Below, one piece after another: positions 5,099 to 62,544 of a DNA stretch of 64,000 nt. Both the position numbers and the translations under genes were made by a program. This stretch comes from Planktothrix rubescens CCAP 1459/22 (GTDB lineage Bacteria; Cyanobacteriota; Cyanobacteriia; Cyanobacteriales; Microcoleaceae): contig LR882958.1 of the NCBI GenBank assembly GCA_904830895.1, positions 1,048,001 to 1,112,000 of the forward strand, in the 5' to 3' direction. The notes under the pieces are model-generated. The model was given only the letters and a program-made list of their open reading frames with translations, was not told the origin of the DNA and did not search any database. Numbering within the stretch: the stretch's first letter is position 1; each line of letters starts with the position of its first letter.

Positions 5099-5239
5099 TT
5101 TAATCTTAGGTGCTTAATCGCTTATTGTGATATTGGTCACATAATTTCTACGGAAACATCACTTCAGCAGACCTAAATCAATCACCTCCCAAATCGGGTA
5201 AACACGAGATGATAAAAGTGTCGAGTTCAAGGTCTTGCC

Positions 5240-5574: not shown

Positions 5575-5594
5575 CTACACTGATGACTGATAAT

Positions 5595-6482
5595 ATGTTT
5601 CCGAGTTTTCTCCCTGAATCTGTACAGAAATTAACCGAAGCTACTTCCATCGCCTTCGCTCAAAATCTCAGATGTGAACCCATTTCTACTCCTTTACGAA
5701 AGCAACCGATTCAAACCACTTATATTCGTCAAGGTCAGGGGGGAACCCCGATTTTATTAATTCATGGATTTGATAGTTCTGTCTTTGAATATCGGCGATT
5801 ATTACCATTATTAGCCACAGAAAATGAAACTTTTGCCGTGGATATTTTAGGGTTTGGATTCACAGAACGGGGAACGGAATTTAAGTTAAATCGCTCGGAA
5901 ATAGCGACTCATTTATATTCATTTTGGCAAACTTTAATTAATCAACCTGTGATTTTGGTTGGGGCTTCCATGGGGGGTGCAGTTGCCTTGGATTTTACCC
6001 TATTGTATCCTGAAGCGGTGAAATCTCTAGTATTATTAGACAGTGCGGGCATGAAACCAGGGCCAGTTATGGGTAAGTTTTTATTACCGCCTTTTGACCA
6101 TTTAGCTACAGAATTTTTAAGGAATCCTAAAGTCCGTCAAGCGATTAGTGAAAGTGCTTATTATGATAAAACTTTTGCGTCTGTCGATGCTCAAATTTGC
6201 GCCGCCTTGCATTTAGAAGCTATGGGTTGGAATCAAGGCTTGATTAGGTTTAGTAAGACCGGGGGATATGGAAAGTTTGGTAAGCAATTGAATAATATTC
6301 AACAACAAACCTTGATTTTATGGGGAGATCATGATAAAATATTAGGAACCAAAGATGCGTATAAATTTGAAAAAGCTATTCCCCACTCTCAATTGATTTG
6401 GGTTAAAAACTCTGGTCATGTTCCCCATTTAGAACAACCCCAAACCACGGCACAATATATTTTAGATTTTGTGAAAAATTAA
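5595..6482 (+). CDS. Alpha/beta-hydrolase
   Basis: A 295-residue alpha/beta-hydrolase fold enzyme. The oxyanion region is HGFDSS. The nucleophile elbow GASMGG carries Ser125, WGDHDK carries the probable catalytic Asp247, and SGHVPH carries His275 (numbering from this start). The substrate cannot be read from the sequence. I start it at MFPSFLPESV because the ATG 12 bp upstream (5583) lies within a heptamer-type repeat (ATGACTGATAAT). There is no signal peptide, so it is probably cytoplasmic. A clear terminator follows, so it is likely monocistronic. Confidence 0.8.
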   Translation: MFPSFLPESVQKLTEATSIAFAQNLRCEPISTPLRKQPIQTTYIRQGQGGTPILLIHGFDSSVFEYRRLLPLLATENETFAVDILGFGFTERGTEFKLNRSEIATHLYSFWQTLINQPVILVGASMGGAVALDFTLLYPEAVKSLVLLDSAGMKPGPVMGKFLLPPFDHLATEFLRNPKVRQAISESAYYDKTFASVDAQICAALHLEAMGWNQGLIRFSKTGGYGKFGKQLNNIQQQTLILWGDHDKILGTKDAYKFEKAIPHSQLIWVKNSGHVPHLEQPQTTAQYILDFVKN

Positions 6483-48713: not shown

Positions 48714-50909
48714 TTAGGCAGTTTTCTGCTTAATTAATTGTTGGAAAATCCCATATAAATTTTGAGCAAATTGTTGAGGATTCCATAGAGGAGCCAAAGA
48801 TTCAGATTGCTTAGATTTAATCAATTTTTCTTGAACTAAAGTTCTCAAAACCTGATCCTGACCTAAACGCACCCCCCAGTTAATATAGTCCTTCCAAGAC
48901 TCAGAAATTCCTTCTTCAATTGATAATCCTTGTAAAAAAGAATAACCCATCCGCGATAAAAATTGTTCCCCTTTATAAGTCACCACAGGAACATTAAACC
49001 AGAGGGCTTCTAAAGTGTGAGTCCCACCATTATAGGGGTAGGAATCCAAGAAAACATCCGTAATCCCATACACTTGACGGTGTTCTTCTTCCCTGGGAAA
49101 ACGGGGGAGAAATTTAATCCGATGTTTCCCCACACCCAAGCCATCACAAACTTGACGATAGGTTGAAATTACCACATCTTGATCCGCCAAACCCTTATAA
49201 ATTAAAATACTATCGGGAACTTGTTTAAGAATTTCGACTTGAGCTTTAACTAATTCCAGATTGAATTTCCGACCCGACGCCACACATAAATAAACAATTT
49301 GATCCGAACTAATTCGATAGGTTTTTCGCAATTGAATTGGATTAGTTTCAACTCGCTCAAACCCAGAAACCGCCATAAAAGACTGCGGCATTTTTAATAA
49401 TTGTTCCGTGTAGTATTTTTCCGTCCCTTTGGGATGGGTATATTCATCCCCTAAAAAATAAGTTTGATTAGAGACTTGCAAGGCATCAAACCCCAGCCAA
49501 GAAATACAAATAGGGGCAGGTTTGTAATAAAAAATATCGCTGTGAATAGGTAAACTTAACGCATCTAAATCTAAAATAATATCAATTTGATCATTAGTAA
49601 TTTCTTGAATAATTTCTTCCGGTGTGGGTAATCCATTGGGATAGTGTTTAGGAATAAAAAACTTATTTGCGATCGCTTCAAATAATGGGGTACGATCATC
49701 CGCCTGGAGGCGATCAGTACAATAAAGATAGAGCTTAACGGGTAAATTTGATAATTCGCGTAAAACATCCAAACTACACCAACCCACCGAATGACGATTA
49801 AAATGGCTAGATAAGATGCCAATTCTTAACGGAGAATTGGGAAATGTAGCGGGAATAGTATCGGAAATTGATTGATATTTAGGCTTGAGAATTTTCTCAA
49901 TATATTTTTTAGTAATTCGATGATGGAGCTTAATGTTTTTATCCAAATCATCTCTTAAATAGGGCATACTAAAGAGTAAATTAGAATACAGGGATTTAAT
50001 TTCTACTAAAGTCGTCCGATCTAATTTAGAATAAAGTTGAGATTCTAACTTTAAAAACCGATCTTTAGCGATATGGTTTAATCCCGATACCTGATAGGTG
50101 CTAATCCCATAAATTGCCGCCATAATCGGGTCAATTTCATGACAACATTCGATATAGCGATCCACCGCTTTACGGGCAGCAGCTAAATTACTACTATCGC
50201 GATAAATGCCACATAAATGTTGATGGGCTAGGGGTAAATTAGGTTTAATTTCAATTGCTTTTTCTAATAAAGGAATTGCCTCTTTATATTTTCCCTGATG
50301 TCGTAAAACCATCCCCATTTGACCATAGGCTTCAGCAAAATCTGGCTTCAACTCCACAACTTTTTGCCAAAGGGCGATCGCTTCCTCAACCTTGCCTTGG
50401 AGCGCTAATTGATTCCCTTGATTAAATAGAACATCCGCCCCGCCCAATTGGGGATTTAAGGCTAAGGCTCGTTGCTCTGAAATCTGGGCTTCCCCGTCCT
50501 GTCCTAAGTGTTTTAAAACCTGCGCCAAATTCCAATGGACAGCAGCTAAATCCGGCTGTAAATTCACCGCTTGGCGATAACTATTAATCGCGGATTCCAG
50601 TTGTCCTTGTCGGTAAAACATACTCCCCAAATTAACATGGGCTTGGGGTAAATTCGGGTTAATTGCTAATGCTTGTTGATAGGATCGAATCGCCTCTTGT
50701 ATTTGACCCTGGGCTTGATAAATATTCCCCATGGTCACATAGGCTAATGGCTCATTCGGCTCAAGGGCGATCGCGTTTTGGCAGGCTGCGATCGCCTCAG
50801 AATACAATTTCTGAACATAGTAAGTTTCCGCCAATTGTGTCCACCCTTGAGGACTATCAGGCTGTATTGCGGTAGAGGGATCAGAGAATTGATTCGGATT
50901 CACGGACAT
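48714..50909 (-). CDS. TPR protein with OGT-like (GT41-type) glycosyltransferase domain
   Basis: A 731-residue protein. Residues 20-255 hold about seven TPRs (AIALEPNEPLAYVTMGNIYQ, AINPNLPQAHVNLGSMFYRQ, and others). Residues 350-725 resemble the catalytic part of O-GlcNAc transferase/SPINDLY proteins: RIGILSSHFNRHSVG, LDLDAL, ISWLGFDA, and DVFLDSYPYNGGTHTLEALW then VPVVTYKGEQFLSRMG. It probably glycosylates proteins or surface structures in the cytoplasm with a UDP- or GDP-sugar. Inverted MITE copies lie on both sides. The donor sugar and target are unknown. Confidence 0.82.
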   Translation of the reverse strand: MSVNPNQFSDPSTAIQPDSPQGWTQLAETYYVQKLYSEAIAACQNAIALEPNEPLAYVTMGNIYQAQGQIQEAIRSYQQALAINPNLPQAHVNLGSMFYRQGQLESAINSYRQAVNLQPDLAAVHWNLAQVLKHLGQDGEAQISEQRALALNPQLGGADVLFNQGNQLALQGKVEEAIALWQKVVELKPDFAEAYGQMGMVLRHQGKYKEAIPLLEKAIEIKPNLPLAHQHLCGIYRDSSNLAAARKAVDRYIECCHEIDPIMAAIYGISTYQVSGLNHIAKDRFLKLESQLYSKLDRTTLVEIKSLYSNLLFSMPYLRDDLDKNIKLHHRITKKYIEKILKPKYQSISDTIPATFPNSPLRIGILSSHFNRHSVGWCSLDVLRELSNLPVKLYLYCTDRLQADDRTPLFEAIANKFFIPKHYPNGLPTPEEIIQEITNDQIDIILDLDALSLPIHSDIFYYKPAPICISWLGFDALQVSNQTYFLGDEYTHPKGTEKYYTEQLLKMPQSFMAVSGFERVETNPIQLRKTYRISSDQIVYLCVASGRKFNLELVKAQVEILKQVPDSILIYKGLADQDVVISTYRQVCDGLGVGKHRIKFLPRFPREEEHRQVYGITDVFLDSYPYNGGTHTLEALWFNVPVVTYKGEQFLSRMGYSFLQGLSIEEGISESWKDYINWGVRLGQDQVLRTLVQEKLIKSKQSESLAPLWNPQQFAQNLYGIFQQLIKQKTA

Positions 50910-55753: not shown

Positions 55754-56644
55754 TTAAGCAATCGAAGAATTTTGATGAGAAATAGGACAATAGTTAATTG
55801 GTTTATCTTCAGGATAATTTAGGGCAAATTCAACATTTTGATAGAGGTGACTGATCATTTGATTTCCCTCAACCGTAAAAGTTAAATAATGCAATCCGGT
55901 TTGAATATATTGGGCGACAACATTTTTAAAGAAATTGGGATAAGCCTGTCTAATATGATCGGGATGGTGATAGCCAAACTGTCGATTTGATCCGGTTTCT
56001 TCAAACTCTTGAAATAAATCGGGCATTTTATGAATATACCTTGGATCAGCTAACTGACCAATTAAATCCGCAGCCCGAATTAAACCAGGATAATCACTGG
56101 TACCTCGATGTTCTTCATCATTAGGAACCGGAAAACGAGTTAACTCAATATAGTGTTGAATTGTGTTAATATTAACCAAGGGATTATGCTTAAAATATTC
56201 TTGAATAAACTGTTTTCCCCGATCAACATGATAAGGAGTTAAACTTGCATCCGTTGTTTCTGGTAAAAGTTGAATTATTTCTCCATTTTTTCCGGTGGAA
56301 TAGATTCTATCTTCAATCCTATCTTCACTACAAATGCCTTTAACATAGCCAATATCATGGCAGAGTAAAGCAATAATTGTATATAGCCAATCTTGAGGGG
56401 AAACATTTTTTTCACTGAGATATTTTCCTCGCAAAATTGCTTGTCCAGTTAAAGTTACTAGAATCGTGTGTTCAACATTGTGGTAGGGTGCATTACTTTG
56501 TAAAATTTGATGCAAAGTAAAGTTAGCTACTTCAACCATCAAGTTTGCATAATCAAGTTGTTGCTGGCCATAAACTTGATAGTAACATAAGTATAAACGA
56601 TGAATGCAGTCTTGAATCATCAGAGTTTGAGTTCGGTGGCACAT
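55754..56644 (-). CDS. HD-domain metalloprotein
   Basis: This protein of about 296 residues has an HD phosphohydrolase-like core: YHNVEHTILVTLTGQAIL (first His), LLCHDIGYVKG (His-Asp), YHVDRG, and RAADLIGQLADPRY. HD proteins cleave phosphodiesters or phosphomonoesters, often of nucleotides; the substrate is unknown. ATG 56644 (MCHRTQTL) is preferred over 56686, but MIQDCIHRLYL further in is also possible. Confidence 0.72.
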   Translation of the reverse strand: MCHRTQTLMIQDCIHRLYLCYYQVYGQQQLDYANLMVEVANFTLHQILQSNAPYHNVEHTILVTLTGQAILRGKYLSEKNVSPQDWLYTIIALLCHDIGYVKGICSEDRIEDRIYSTGKNGEIIQLLPETTDASLTPYHVDRGKQFIQEYFKHNPLVNINTIQHYIELTRFPVPNDEEHRGTSDYPGLIRAADLIGQLADPRYIHKMPDLFQEFEETGSNRQFGYHHPDHIRQAYPNFFKNVVAQYIQTGLHYLTFTVEGNQMISHLYQNVEFALNYPEDKPINYCPISHQNSSIA

Positions 56645-56686
56645 ATAGAGGGTTTTCCTTAAAGATAGAGGGGATTTTCCATTCAA

Positions 56687-57088
56687 TTGTGATCAGAGAT
56701 GGATTTACTTATATCTTGATTCAATTTCAACCGAATGAAAACCAGAAAAGCTCATTAGTTTTGCTAAATTTTTACCGACCTGTAAAATCCCTCCAAGCTA
56801 AGTTAATATTTTATCCTGAATTGTCTCCTTAAAACCTCATAAAACCTCAGAAATATTCAGGAATTACCAAGGTTTAATTGACTTTTATCACAATTCTCTA
56901 TACACTTTCAGTGATTTCACTCACACCGGGATCAAAATAAATACTTATAATTAAAATATACCTGTTCGTAAAGGGTATAATGGTTAAGGATGAGAGAGGT
57001 TTGTGCAAAAATCTTGATTAAAATTGTAATATCATCAGTTTGATCACAGTATTTTTTATGAATAAACTAAATATATTAGAACTAGAAT
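56687..57088. other. Intergenic region before the TIR-ATPase operon
   Basis: A 402-bp AT-rich gap between divergent genes. A TATAAT lies at 56976-56981, about 110 bp before the TIR gene, without a recognisable -35. No repeat family member or RNA gene is visible. Confidence 0.4.
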
Positions 57089-59044
57089 ATGGATGCTAAA
57101 GCAGCATTAGAATGGATTGATCAATTGATTTTTGAACATCAGGGTAAGCATCTCAATGATTTAGAAAGGGAGGTTTTTATTGGCTCTTGGGAAGGAAAAA
57201 GTTACCATGAAATTTATCCTTTAAATCCTAGCTATATTGAAAAATATGTGGGATATAAACTTTGGCAGAAAATCTCTCAAACCTTCGGAGAAAAAGTCAC
57301 AAAAAAAACGATTAAAGGAGCAGTAGAACGCTATCAAAATCAAGATAATTTTGTTCAGTTGAGTCAAATTCCTGGGGACTTGCTGCAACTCTCTCCCCAT
57401 TGTTATCGAGTATTTATCAGTCACGGAAATACTGAGTTAAATATTCATTTTGCACAGCAGTTAGAAGCGATTTTAATTCAAGTTGGACATTCTGTATTCT
57501 TAGCAGCTTGGGAAGTCACCCGCTCTCAAATCAATCAACAGGAAACCGATTTTTTAGCTGAAATTGATACAGAATTAAAACACTGTGACTATTTTATTTT
57601 ACTATTATCCCCTCAATCAACCCTTAGTGAAATGGTGATTGAAGAATTGCGTCAAGTCCGAGAATTACAAGATACTCATTCTCACCGTTTACCAATAATT
57701 ATTCCAATTTGGGTGAATTGTCCGGCAAATTTAGCCTTAAATCATGATCTAAGAAGTTATTTATTGGGAACCGTTCAACGAACCTGGACAGGTCAACAAG
57801 ATACAGCTTTAATTATACAAGAAATTCTCTGTCTTTTGCAAGATTCTATTCCTGAATCTCCACCGCAAAATTTACAGTTAAATTGGGATGAATCGGAACT
57901 CGAAAAACCCGATAATTTAGCCATAGAATCCCATCAACTATCCTCGGTTTCTGCCATTTCAATTAAACCCATTTATTCCTCGGAAATTCCCTCTCCCCTT
58001 CCCGTAGCAGAACCGGAATTACCCAGTGGACAAGTCCGTTTAGAATCGGTTTTTTATATTAAACGGGTTCCCCATGAAGATCAATGTTATCACGAAATGA
58101 CCCATCCGGGGGCATTAATTCGTTTAAAAGCACCCCGTCAGATGGGGAAAACTTCACTAATGGCGCGAATTTTAGAACAGGGACGGAAACAGGGTTATCG
58201 CACGGTTCCTTTGAGTTTTCAACACGCGGATAAATCTATTTTTACTAACTTAAATCATCTGTTACAATGGTTATGTTCTAAAGTAACTCGCAAATTAAAA
58301 TTAGCCCATCACGTTCCCGATTATTGGAGTAATACTTTTGGAAGTAAAGATAATTGTACAGCTTATTTTGAGGATTATTTATTATCAGAAAGTGATACCC
58401 CTTTAGTCCTAGGATTAGATGAAGTAGATCGAGTGTTTCAATATCCAAATATTGCCGATGATTTCTTTAGTTTACTTCGAGCTTGGTATGAAGAAGCTAA
58501 CTATGGGGGAGGAGATAGTGAACTTTGGGAAAAATTGCGGTTAGTGATTGTTCATTCCACAGAAGTTTATATCCCTTTAGACATTAATCAATCCCCCTTT
58601 AATGTCGGTTTACCGATTGAATTAACCGAATTTACCGCAACTCAAGTTAACGAGTTAGCACACCGACATGGATTAAATTGGGGAGATATTGAAGTCGAAA
58701 CTTTAATGAAAATAGTGGGTGGACATCCCTATTTAGTTCGAGTAGCACTTTATCATCTCGTTCAATATTCCATGAGTTTAGAACAATTCGCAGAAATAGC
58801 ACCCACAGAAGCCGGAATTTATGGCGACCATCTTCGCCGACATTTATGGAATTTGCAACAACATCCTGAATTAGCTCAAGCTTTTTATCAGGTGGTTTGT
58901 TCTCCTCAACCTGTAGAATTAGAATCAATTTTGGCGTTTAAATTACATAGTTTAGGTTTAGTTCATTTGCAAGGAAATGAAGTCACTCCTCGTTTTGAAC
59001 TTTATCAAAACTATTTTGGTCATCGTTTAATGATTAAAACCTAA
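57089..59044 (+). CDS. TIR-domain protein with AAA-35-type ATPase
   Basis: A 651-residue protein. Residues 1-85 match the N-terminal helical domain of vWA-MoxR-associated conflict proteins ([20 protein letters not shown], then YHEIYP). Residues 105-250 are a TIR domain ([27 protein letters not shown], with Glu186 at the position of the NADase glutamate). Residues 315-640 are an AAA-35-type P-loop ATPase with Walker [11 protein letters not shown] near 347-356 and Walker B LGLDEVD near 441-447. TIR domains can cleave NAD on activation. The next gene, starting 17 bp later, carries the same ATPase type. A sensing-effector pair is inferred. Confidence 0.75.
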
Positions 59045-59061
59045 TAATTTACTTTAATTAT

Positions 59062-62000
59062 ATGAATTTAACATCTACTCCAACCTATCATTATAAAGTC
59101 GGTGGACATCTATCTTTAGATACTCCTAGTTATGTAATTCGACAAGCCGACCGGGACTTATATGAAGCCTTAAAAGCGGGAGAATTTTGTTATGTTTTGA
59201 ATGCGCGTCAAATGGGAAAAACCAGTTTACGAGTCAGAACTTTACATCAACTACAAGATGAAGGTTTTGCTTGTGCGGCGGTAGATTTAACAAAAATTGG
59301 TTCCCAAGATATTACACCCGATCAATGGTATGCGGGAATTATGAGGCGTTTAGTCACCAGTTTTCGGCTTCCCATTCATTTAAAAGCTTGGTTACAGGAA
59401 CGAGAATTTTTACCCCCAATTCAACGGTTAAGCGAGTTAATTGAACAGGTTTTATTAGACTGTATTCAACAACCAATTATTATTTTTATTGATGAAGTTG
59501 ATAGTATTCTTAGCCTGAATTTTTGTGCGGATGATTTTTTTGCATTTATTAGAACCTGTGACGAATATCCTTTATTAACTTTTGCCTTATTAGGGGTCGC
59601 CACACCCAATGATTTAATGCAGGATAAAAGCTGTAATCCCTTTAATGTCGGTCGTCCGATTCAACTGAATGGATTTTGTTATCAAGAAGTGCAACCCTTA
59701 ATTGATGGATTAATCGGGAAAATTAGTCAGCCTGAATTAGTTCTAAAAACTATTTTAGAGTGGACAGGAGGACAACCTTTTTTAACTCAAAAATTGTGTT
59801 ATCTAATCCATCAAAAAGTAATTGAGAATACTCAACCTTTAGATATTCCTAGTTTTCAAGTATCGAGTTGGGTTGAACAGTTAATCTATACCCATTTTAT
59901 TAAAAATTGGGAATCTCAAGATGAACCTCCCCATTTAAAAACCATTCGAGATCGGATTCTAAAAGCCGATAATCGGATTACATCTCGCTTAACTTTATAT
60001 CAAAATATTTTGCAAAAAGGTAGTATTTCTACGGATATTACTGTGGAACAAATGGAATTGAGATTATCGGGATTAGTGGTTAAACAGGGAACCGATTTAA
60101 AAGTCTATAACCGAATTTATGAAACGGTTTTTAACGAAAATTGGTTGCAAAAAACTTTAGCCAGTCAAGAGCCGAATTTTAATCAAATTATTGGGGAAAA
60201 AGAACAAAAACTCCTATCCATGTTGCGAGAAATGGAAGGAAAAGAATTTGATGATATTTTAAGCGAAATTTTAGGTTCAATTGCCTTAAAACTGGTAGAA
60301 TTAATGTGTGTGGATCGGATGACGATTTATTTTATTGATAAAGAAAAAAACGAAATTTGGTCAATTAGTACCAGATTCACCGGAAATCAAACCACAAAAA
60401 TTTCAATTTTAGCTAATAATCAAACCGCCGGACGAGTCACAATTTATAAAAAAGCGATTCCCAGGACTTCAGATTATTCTGCGGATTGGTATTCGATTTT
60501 TGCCGAAACCCAAAATCCTAGAATTGGGTATCAAATTTATAATCAGTTAACACTTCCTCTAGGAGAAGATAATCAAACAATTTTTGCTTTTGTGCATTTA
60601 GTTAATAAACTTAAAAAAACTCATCTTTTAGCCGATTCTTTTCAAGATAAAATTGATAAAGCTGGATTTACTGAAATCGAACCTCAGCAATTTTTACAAT
60701 ATGCTCCCGGTTTACAACGCATTTTAGCAAGCTGTTATGAAAGTTATAAACTAACCCAAAGAATACAAGCCTCTGAAGCCTTAACAGAAGCCACTAGAAC
60801 GGTTCATCAAAGTAGTTTAGACTGTGAAGAAATTATTCAACGGGTGATGAAAGCCGCTAAAAAATTGATGAATGCAGATCGAAGTACCCTATGGTTATTA
60901 GATAAAATTACCCAGGAACTTTGGACACAAATTCCCTTTGAAGATGGATCTATCCGAGAACTGCGATTAAAAATCGGACAAGGATTTGCGGGAAAAGTTG
61001 CAGAAACGGGAAATACTTTAAATATTCCCTTTGATTTATATGCTCATCCTGAGTCGGAAATATCGCAAAAAACCGATCAAAAAACTGGATATCGTACCTG
61101 TAGTTTATTGTGTATGCCTGTTTTGAATCCCGATGGTGAATTAATTGGTGTAACTCAATTAATTAATAAACGTAAACAGGGTGAATTTGCCGAATATGAA
61201 CCCGATGACTGGCCGACAGCACCGGAATGTTTTGAAGCGAGTTTTGATGCTAATAGTCAAAAATATATGCAGATTTTTAATTCCCAAGTCGGGGTAGCTT
61301 TATATAATGCCAGACAATATGAAGCTATGAAAGAACACGCAGAAAATACTCCCCAAGGCGTGATTAGCCAAACCTTAGCTATGTTAAATCAAGTTATGGA
61401 TGGACAGGGGTTTGATGAAATTTTAGATGCCACATTACGGTCAATTACTTTAAAAACAGGAAAGTTATTAAATGCAGATCGCACGACTATTTTTATGTTA
61501 GATGAAGAACGGAATGAATTTTGGTCAATGATTGCTGAAAGTGAAGGAAATTGTCCCTTGGAAATTCGAGTTCCGGCTGATAAAGGTATTGTGGGAGAAG
61601 TTGCTAAATTAAAAAAATTAGTGAATATTCCTTATGATTTTTATGATGATCCTAGATCAAAAACGGCTCAAGAACAAGATCGGAAAAATGGTTATCGAAC
61701 TTATTCAATGTTGGCTTTTCCATTATTAAATGAACAGGGAATTTTAGTGACGGTTGTACAAGCGATTAATAAGTTAAAATCAGGATGCGATCGCAGTCTT
61801 TCCTTATCAGAAAAAATCGATCATCAAGGATTTACAACTGATGATGAACAACAATTTTTAGAAAATGCTCCCTTAATTCGGATGATTTTAGAAAGTTTTT
61901 GTTCCTATCATAAAACCGCCAGAGGACAAAGAGTTGCAGCCGCCCTAATGGCCGCGACTCGTTCTGTAAGTCAAAGTAGTTTAGAATTCGATGAAATCCT

Positions 62001-62544
62001 CAAACGAGTCATGGCTGCTGCCAAGGATTTAATGATGGCAGATCGCAGTACATTATGGTTATTAGATCGTCAAAATCATCAACTTTGGACTAAAATTACT
62101 TTTAATGATGGTTCCGAGCATGAAATTAGAATTAAAGTCGGTCAAGGGTATGCGGGAAAAGTTGCGGAAATGGGAGTTTCTTTGAATATTCCCTTTGATT
62201 TATATGATTATCCTGACTCAGAAACTGCTAAAAAAACCGATCAAAAAACGGGATATCGTACCTGTAGTTTATTGTGTATGCCTGTTTGGAACCCCGATGG
62301 CGAGTTAATTGGTGTGACTCAATTAGTTAATAAAAAGAAACCGCTTGAAGATGATGATCAAGTATTAAGTTATGATACGGAAGTTCCCGAAGCATTTCGA
62401 GTTAGTTTTGATAGCAATGATCAGAAATATATGCAAGTTTTTAATAATCAAGTTGGGGTAATATTACAAAATGCCGAACTTTTAGCAGCCGTTAAACACC
62501 AGGAGAAAAGTTTCCGCGAGAAATTTAATCAAGGGAATGGGTAA
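59062..62544 (+). CDS. AAA-35-type ATPase with four GAF domains
   Basis: This 1160-residue protein opens with an ATPase like that of its neighbour (Walker [10 protein letters not shown] near 47-55; Walker [10 protein letters not shown] near 139-147). Four GAF domains follow at about 393-565, 585-755, 780-950 and 972-1140. GAF2 and GAF4 are closely similar ([35 protein letters not shown]), and GAF1 and GAF3 form a second pair, so a GAF pair was duplicated. The domains resemble the cyclic-nucleotide-binding GAFs of cyanobacterial adenylate cyclases (INKRKQ/VNKKK ends), but no cyclase follows. It is likely a ligand-sensing partner of the TIR protein. Confidence 0.75.

Follow-up and report, generated by a model that had tools for sequence, protein, structure and literature searches.

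Bacterial TIR domains are known to signal with exotic messengers (cyclic ADP-ribose forms, cyclic oligonucleotides and cyclic pyrimidines), and in the Pycsar system a cyclic pyrimidine carries the signal to a TIR effector. Here we examine a 64,000-nucleotide stretch of Planktothrix rubescens CCAP 1459/22 (contig LR882958.1, positions 1,048,001 to 1,112,000; hereafter the window), in which an initial annotation made from the sequence alone had pointed to a two-gene unit encoding a TIR-ATPase (gene A) and an ATPase with four GAF domains (gene B). Both genes were recovered as open reading frames (ORFs) at 57089-59044 and 59062-62544, 17 bp apart and on the + strand, and each encodes an AAA_35 ATPase. 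The pair is conserved (46 of 56 loci), and the unit has a third member that had been overlooked, a divergent HD-domain gene at 55754-56686. Our preferred interpretation, which we hold somewhat more probable than its negation on the basis of sequence comparisons, is that the module is a cyclic AMP (cAMP)-sensing two-ATPase switch with a TIR output, with ligand binding and assembly of A with B as predicted properties.

Comparison with described systems

The nucleoside triphosphate-dependent conflict systems of the VMAP/iSTAND type (PMC7159879) resemble this module in their P-loop ATPase core, their swappable TIR, caspase-like, trypsin, cyclase and GGDEF domains, their multi-gene organization and their occurrence in cyanobacteria. 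The module differs in that its core consists of paired AAA_35 ATPases and its sensor is GAF or WD40, and the MoxR and vWA components of the ternary VMAP/iSTAND arrangement had no Pfam match in gene A, gene B or the 8 neighboring ORFs scanned. Like Pycsar, the module would link a cyclic mononucleotide to a TIR domain, whereas its sensor lies on a separate protein and is built of CyaB2-type GAFs; the Pycsar effector model CAP12-PCTIR (PF10137) reached only E 0.1, below its cut-off, and no cyclase was found among the neighbors scanned. With the TIRs of Thoeris ThsB, Cat1 and AbTir, gene A shares the TIR fold and the position of a glutamate, Glu186, and it differs from them in having no WxxxE Trp and in being fused to AAA_35. 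ThsB models matched at E 2.8e-4 and 0.016, NCBIfam ThcB4 scored 22 bits (cut-off 220), and Pfam revealed no ThsA-like neighbor. What the locus does contain is a head-to-tail A and B, each with its own AAA_35 domain.

PADLOC, NCBIfam and Pfam scans of genes A and B returned no known defense-system assignment; in PADLOC the best match of the window TIR was 1.4e-4, with relatives reaching 2.3e-11 against other TIR models. Published conflict systems have the same domain vocabulary, and no AAA_35 pair was seen in the available portions of PMC7159879 and PMC10907252. In the literature searched, whose coverage mostly lacks subscription papers and preprints, we recognized no published description of the A-B pair among the papers listed. 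The features of the locus, in window coordinates, are as follows.

55754..56686, - strand: HD gene (divergent third gene), HD-domain metalloprotein, NCBIfam Npun_R2479 family, candidate cyclic-nucleotide phosphodiesterase
about 56644, - strand: alternative start of the HD gene, an in-frame ATG 14 codons in, where many homologues begin and which may be the real start
56687..57088: divergent intergenic region between HD gene and gene A, 402 bp
56910..56925, + strand: CRP-like palindrome AGTGATTTCACTCACA, 1 mismatch to TGTGAN6TCACA, tentative
57089..59044, + strand: gene A, helical/helix-turn-helix (HTH)-like domain-TIR-AAA_35, 651 amino acids, open ORF
57089..57352, + strand: gene A N-terminal helical/HTH-like domain, residues 1-88, aligned in 26 orthologues selected for it
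57401..57838, + strand: gene A TIR domain, residues 105-250, Pfam and profile matches
57644..57646, + strand: gene A Glu186 codon, aligning with the AbTir catalytic Glu; residue 182 is Met where AbTir has Trp
58022..59020, + strand: gene A AAA_35 ATPase, residues 312-644, P-loop APRQMGKT at 348-355, Walker B LGLDE
59062..62544, + strand: gene B, AAA_35-GAF1-GAF2-GAF3-GAF4, 1160 amino acids, open ORF
59104..59985, + strand: gene B AAA_35 ATPase, residues 15-308
60187..60741, + strand: gene B GAF1, residues 376-560, degenerate
60757..61386, + strand: gene B GAF2, residues 566-775; in the window protein the CyaB2-pocket Arg, Thr and Ile equivalents are kept and NKF is present, with D and E lost
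61432..61941, + strand: gene B GAF3, residues 791-960, full NKFDE motif
61957..62496, + strand: gene B GAF4, residues 966-1145, NKFD with Gln for Glu

Conservation of the gene A-gene B pair

Residues 1-251 of gene A were searched against 148 genomes of the order, of which 28 matched over both the helical domain and the TIR (counted by eye, with a stop-ridden match in G024 excluded), so that presence of the module is patchy. Loci were fetched from 27 of these genomes (L037-L063; the 28th is the window's own), from 13 of the TIR-only matches (L064-L076) and, from titled contigs, for the best 80 of 551 confirmed loci. Dereplication by identical AAA_35 segment reduced 124 gene-A rows to 111, among which near-copies remain, and 56 of these have the helical domain-TIR-AAA_35 arrangement. 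In 46 of the 56 loci the next gene downstream of gene A is an AAA_35-GAF gene B (including L082, where it is divided between two frames, and L099, where the contig ends within it), by which we rejected a chance pair of neighbors. Across the 148 genomes, also counted by eye, a match to gene B was found in 24 of the 28 genomes with gene A and in 0 of the 120 others, where the test segment was the end of AAA_35 plus GAF1 and a match meant at least 239 of 247 residues at an identity of at least 42%; some of the 120 carry a sister type of gene B or GAF-cyclases matching GAF1 alone. The co-occurrence that the initial annotation had proposed as a check is thus borne out at both levels. In the four genomes that were missed, gene B is frame-broken (G061), present as a remnant (G102) or without a match (G017 and G119). 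Apparent decay was also seen at the level of loci, with gene B frame-broken in L055/L102 and, in L063, a short gene A (249 amino acids) beside a gene B remnant.

The partner varies with the type of gene A. Among TIR or CHAT(-TIR) gene-A loci without the helical domain, 39 have an AAA_35-WD40/transmembrane (TM) gene next downstream and 2 have an AAA_35-GAF gene there (L110 and L142, in both of which gene A is cut at the contig start). Gene-A type and partner type (GAF or WD40/TM) were associated at a Fisher p of 9.9e-23, a value that ignores relatedness and excludes rows with no partner, with a partner having AAA_35 only, or with no recognized N-terminus. Distance matrices of the A and B ATPases correlated at r 0.87 (90 pairs) and 0.90 (50 GAF pairs), with 0 of 2000 permutations as high. 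Taking gene order and these comparisons together, A and B probably form a complex.

Paired AAA_35 genes are not confined to the window. AAA_35 was matched 11 times in the P. rubescens genome (10 times over the cut-off), and three clear head-to-tail pairs are present, including that of the window; the second (L001) is CHAT-AAA_35 with AAA_35-WD40 and the third (L002) an unassigned N-terminus with AAA_35-WD40, and an orphan AAA_35-WD40 gene was also present (L003). Elsewhere in cyanobacteria, gene-A proteins combine TIR with trypsin, class III cyclase or sigma70-r4 domains or, as identified by BLAST, with CHAT. We infer a two-ATPase switch with interchangeable halves, in which gene A supplies the output and gene B the sensing. 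We further suggest, at a little under even odds, that the pairs constitute an undescribed cyanobacterial class with swappable outputs (TIR, CHAT, trypsin, cyclase, GGDEF, HTH) and swappable sensors (GAF, WD40), in which the form in the window would have 3',5'-cAMP controlling a TIR protein, with a divergent dedicated phosphodiesterase, or an adenylate cyclase in its sister. The AAA_35 family appears to be little explored, modular and concerned with signaling.

Several individual architectures were recorded alongside. One-chain fusions of class III cyclase, TIR and AAA_35 occur with an N-terminal cyclase in L064, L065, L066, L067, L075 and L141 and with a C-terminal one in L125, and trypsin-TIR-AAA_35 fusions occur in L123, L128, L132 and L151, the gene-B partner in L123 having peptidoglycan-binding repeats. 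In P. rubescens itself, an orphan gene-A-type AAA_35 is fused to a C-terminal GGDEF (L005:2948-4579, - strand), with cyclic di-GMP as a possible output, and a protein of 855 amino acids (L006:4506-7073, - strand) has a long V/A/G/F-rich repetitive stretch followed by a weak AAA_35-like ATPase. The ORF upstream of the latter (369 amino acids) has a partial AAA_35 match, and the two may be a fourth, diverged pair.

The GAF domains of gene B, a predicted sensor

Pfam placed AAA_35 at residues 15-308 of gene B (E 7e-27) and GAF in 3 stretches (E 2e-39), the fourth GAF, GAF1, being degenerate and recognized by alignment. In the ATPase, the P-loop GK(T/S) was found in 21 of 21 aligned orthologues and the Walker B DE is kept. 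The Anabaena CyaB2 tandem GAF structure with bound cAMP, 1YKD, matched residues 767-1151 at E 7.4e-144; the two are identical at 229 of 381 residues (60%). Another kind of GAF sensor was considered and rejected, since this cAMP-binding pair was the best PDB match. Pocket residues were counted in 21 orthologues (the window and 20 others; the near-copy L045 was set aside, as were loci lacking a complete adjacent gene B). In each of GAF2, GAF3 and GAF4, all 21 have Arg at the position of CyaB2 R291, which we take to be a cAMP contact. At the I308 position all 21 have Ile in GAF2 and in GAF4, and 14 of the 21 have it in GAF3. In CyaB2 GAFb, I308 and T309 contact cAMP, and a T293A change lowered the affinity for cGMP but not for cAMP (PMC4411481).

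Gene B is therefore alike to the CyaB2 tandem in the 60% identity of GAF3-GAF4, in tandem order and in its Arg and Ile equivalents, and it differs in having an AAA_35 ATPase instead of a PAS-cyclase and two tandem pairs, the first GAF of which is degenerate. That gene B binds a cyclic nucleotide is, judged from these similarities, very probable. The idea of GAF-bound nucleotide in the initial annotation is thus well supported. The P. rubescens genome encodes two GAF-PAS-cyclases (translations read by eye), which are possible sources of cAMP.

The TIR domain of gene A

Pfam identified TIR_2 at residues 108-213 of gene A (E 1.8e-12) and AAA_35 at 312-644 (E 4.5e-149), in agreement with the earlier view that both proteins share this P-loop ATPase; the P-loop GKT was present in 26 of 26 aligned orthologues and the Walker B DE is kept. 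The N-terminal helical domain was aligned in the 26 orthologues, and related N-termini stand at the head of proteins of the NB-ARC and AAA_35 types and of a giant WD40 protein. It had no curated Pfam match in the window protein, and GMT-wHTH appeared at 0.025 in 2 of the 26 orthologues.

The TIR of gene A alone, searched against PDB with phmmer, gave no match. A profile of 39 TIRs gave weak matches to 7uxr, AbTir (7uwg, 8g83) and Cat1 (E 0.00014-0.0027), and designed helical proteins matched as well (0.0003, 0.005); the TIR fold is supported by the TIR_2 Pfam match beside these profile matches. The profile alignment places Glu186 on the AbTir catalytic Glu, as the initial annotation had it, and Met182 on the AbTir Trp, and the TIR profile consensus also departs from AbTir at R151 and D167 (alignment read by eye). 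Position 186 is Glu in 34 of the 56 helical-TIR loci, in 37 of 49 other TIRs and in 71 of 105 overall. It is not Glu in 17 of the 46 loci with an adjacent gene B, which argues against NAD (nicotinamide adenine dinucleotide) cleavage as a conserved output, and its gain or loss requires at the fewest 9 changes on a quick tree of the 56 loci. At position 182, all 105 TIRs have Met, Leu or Ile in place of the WxxxE Trp. Position 185 is Glu in 55 of the 56 helical-TIR loci; this near-invariant residue was considered as a better catalytic candidate and rejected, as the AbTir alignment puts the catalytic Glu at 186.

According to PMC11374754, most bacterial TIR NADases need the WxxxE Glu, W204 is required in AbTir while its equivalent is dispensable in TcpC, and the Trp is tied to production of cyclic ADP-ribose. 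Cleavage of NAD as a conserved function of the family is thus unlikely, since Glu186 is not kept, Trp is absent at 182 and the R151 and D167 equivalents differ; the missing Trp also argues against cyclic ADP-ribose products. For the window protein itself NAD cleavage is possible, given the aligned Glu, and we regard such activity as rather doubtful. The TIR NADase output proposed in the initial annotation is thus supported only weakly.

An HD-domain gene as third member

In 50 of the 56 loci an HD homologue is found upstream of gene A in divergent orientation, at a distance of 356-1265 bp; it is not beside gene A in L104, L119, L124 and L058, nor in L113 and L099, which have under 1.2 kb upstream. 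Beside other AAA_35 gene-A loci it was found in 0 of 55 (0 of the 48 with at least 1.2 kb upstream, the other 7 having less). Conservation of the other neighbors tested (YdcF-like, peptidyl-prolyl isomerase (PPIase), small ORFs) is nearly confined to Planktothrix; the PPIase and a 104-amino-acid ORF recur in L108, and a weak PPIase match was seen in L060. The HD protein scored 389 bits against NCBIfam NF045583, the Npun_R2479 family of HD metalloproteins (cut-off 400), and thus belongs to or borders that family; the orthologue in L061 scored 516 bits. The name Npun_R2479 occurred in no paper among the literature matches listed. Residues His69, His73, His110-Asp111 and Asp207 are invariant in 33 HD sequences, a set which we take to resemble the metal-binding pattern of phosphodiesterases. 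On this pattern and the position of the gene, the HD protein may well be a phosphodiesterase, with the balance tipping modestly toward that assignment.

Paralogues of the HD gene occur widely, and an exclusive link to the module was rejected on that ground. Neighborhoods were read for 20 of them, chosen from the match listing and including the second copy of the P. rubescens genome. Two divergently adjoin AAA_35-GAF genes, one in a pair without TIR (L174) and one beside a gene B without gene A (L182), which suggests that the HD gene, where linked, tracks the GAF sensor and not the TIR. In L180 the paralogue lies between two class III cyclases, with one gene intervening on each side. Near the HD and AAA_35-GAF genes of L182, two ORFs resembling a split IS605-type TnpB were noted by eye (L182:2694-3817, + strand).

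A sister variant with an adenylate cyclase

Sister AAA_35-GAF genes, 34-38% identical in the test segment, were fetched from 9 genomes (L184-L192). Six of the 9 loci have an upstream gene A that carries AAA_35, in some cases with a class III cyclase at the C-terminus, and no TIR; L186 and L187 contain one extra ORF between A and B. All six carry a divergent CyaB2-type GAF-GAF-PAS-cyclase (Pfam was run on L184 only), whose cyclase domain is 60-65% identical to the P. rubescens genome's own and which lies 189-258 bp from gene A in five loci and overlaps the predicted gene A start in one. These six loci represent 4 genera, L185/L188 and L186/L187 each being of the same genus with gene B 92-94% identical. 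Among the loci fetched earlier for the pairing survey, cyclase neighbors of this kind are rare, with one clear case after the AAA_35 pair in L066 and weaker ones near L042/L087 and L089. The presence of a phosphodiesterase-like gene in the TIR variant and of an adenylate cyclase in the sister lends independent support to cAMP as the signal.

Proposed mechanism

We propose that gene B acts as the sensor, with its CyaB2-type GAF2-4 predicted to bind cAMP on the strength of the GAF3-4 identity to the cAMP-bound structure and the conserved pocket residues. The AAA_35 ATPases of A and B would assemble together, as gene order, modular variants and co-inheritance suggest, and nucleotide binding by gene B, with ATP, would alter this assembly in a way that clusters the TIR domains of gene A. 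Assembly or the recruitment of partners may be the main TIR output; lineages that have retained Glu186, Planktothrix among them, could in addition cleave NAD. The divergent HD protein might hydrolyze the cyclic nucleotide and thereby set the threshold of the switch or reset it, as is hinted at by its weak phosphodiesterase similarity, its invariant His and Asp residues and its position. The sequence comparisons establish the domain content, conservation and pairing of the genes, the third gene and the sister variant with its cyclase; ligand binding, assembly, enzyme activities and biological role are what we infer for the module.

A number of observations weigh against this reading. Gene B is frame-broken in 1 of the 56 loci and not adjacent in 9; a contig end is close by in 3 of the 9, and the remaining 6 extend 3.5 kb or more downstream. 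Among these six, gene B lies elsewhere in the genome in L086 (G108) and L092 (G098), its GAF part has no match in the genomes of L058 (G119) and L124 (G017), and the other two are L118 and L121. The correlation of the A and B matrices indicates co-inheritance and not contact. In gene B, the position of T309 is variable in GAF2 and GAF4 and occupied by Ala in GAF3 of all 21 orthologues, GAF1 is degenerate, and NKFDE is complete in GAF3 only: GAF4 has Gln in place of Glu, GAF2 of the window protein has neither D nor E, and GAF1 has lost E and has Glu where D would be. The sister loci L189-L191 and loci of other AAA_35-GAF types (L193-L195, L198) have neither gene A nor such a cyclase. For the HD protein, the match to PDEase_I (PF00233) was at E 0.002 over residues 68-114, under the Pfam cut-off, and 7 of 33 family members matched at 0.1; a PDB profile search with the family matched no phosphodiesterase; the family has 1-5 copies in 79 of the 148 genomes; and 17 of the 20 paralogue neighborhoods contain no AAA_35-GAF or cyclase neighbor.

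If the cAMP-switch interpretation is correct, a TIR protein would answer to cAMP by way of a partner ATPase, and domains of the immune type would thereby be connected with the most familiar of second messengers. The module is a directly testable three-protein system, and its non-conserved catalytic Glu offers a natural test of TIR function without NADase chemistry.

Alternative explanations

The strongest competitor, which we consider unlikely though worth serious weight, is that the module is a cAMP/CRP-linked regulator of cyanobacterial physiology (light, redox, motility), in which the TIR would be a passive scaffold and the HTH-like domain would act on DNA or partners. The CyaB2-type GAFs, the cyclase or phosphodiesterase-like neighbors and the lack of conservation of the TIR catalytic residues are all consistent with such a role, as is the conserved place of the module among housekeeping genes in Planktothrix. 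CRP-like sites in about 3 lineages also fit: with at most 1 mismatch, they were found in 11 of 50 HD-gene A intergenic regions versus 0.65 expected from shuffles. Six of the 11 come from one Planktothrix lineage, the others being L108 and L094, L100, L101 and L107, and we keep the sites as tentative because the enrichment is mostly that of one lineage; over the whole window the motif was not enriched (20 found versus 22.2 expected, with up to 2 mismatches). Against core regulation stand the patchy presence of the module (28 of 148 genomes) and the swapped N-terminal enzymes of its sister systems, which are more typical of conflict or stress modules.

A role in defense or cell death, which the initial annotation had put forward, found little encouragement, as the named flanking genes look like housekeeping genes and the PADLOC matches of the window TIR are weak; by any chemistry we would put it at roughly one chance in three. 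In its specific form, a phage-induced nucleotide signal would be sensed by the GAFs and lead through Glu186 to NAD depletion and death of the infected cell. Many of the named hosts belong to genera that we take to be filamentous (other hosts are bins), which would suit such a system, as would the alignment of Glu186 with the AbTir catalytic Glu. The TIR, caspase-like, trypsin, cyclase and GGDEF domains on AAA_35 gene-A proteins are also conflict-system vocabulary (PMC7159879). Countering this are the inconstancy of Glu186 (34 of 56 loci, absent in 17 of 46 paired loci, at least 9 changes on the tree), the absence of Trp in 105 of 105 TIRs, neighbors that are not defense genes where named, and weak PADLOC matches of the window proteins; we regard the NADase form as improbable, at about one chance in five.

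Less probable still is that the GAFs bind a ligand other than cAMP (cGMP or another, infection-made cyclic nucleotide), which would bring the system nearer to Pycsar-like signaling. Three of the four NKFDE motifs are incomplete, the T309 equivalents vary, and gene-A variants bear class III cyclases of unknown product; the 60% identity to a cAMP-binding pair and the CyaB2-like adenylate cyclase beside the sister variant favor cAMP. Least probable of the four is that the HD gene is an unrelated neighbor conserved through shared locus ancestry only: its 1-5 copies in 79 of 148 genomes, the 17 of 20 unlinked paralogue neighborhoods and a correlation of HD with gene-A distances (r 0.81, 47 loci) that any co-inherited genes would give all allow it, whereas the HD gene is kept in 50 of 56 loci where other neighbors are almost only Planktothrix-conserved and it recurs beside AAA_35-GAF genes without TIR (L174) or without gene A (L182).

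Other features of the window

The closest relatives among the matches listed are 95-97% identical and come from three Planktothrix records and one uncultured Oscillatoriales bin. The named flanking genes of the module in the P. rubescens genome resemble housekeeping genes by Pfam (8 neighboring ORFs scanned). Promoter-like sites were at chance level and terminator-like sites below it. A TPR protein with a Glyco_transf_41 (O-GlcNAc transferase-type) domain is encoded at 48714-50909 (- strand), and a perfect CRP-like palindrome, TGTGATATTGGTCACA, lies at 5126-5141, upstream of an ORF at 5583-6482.

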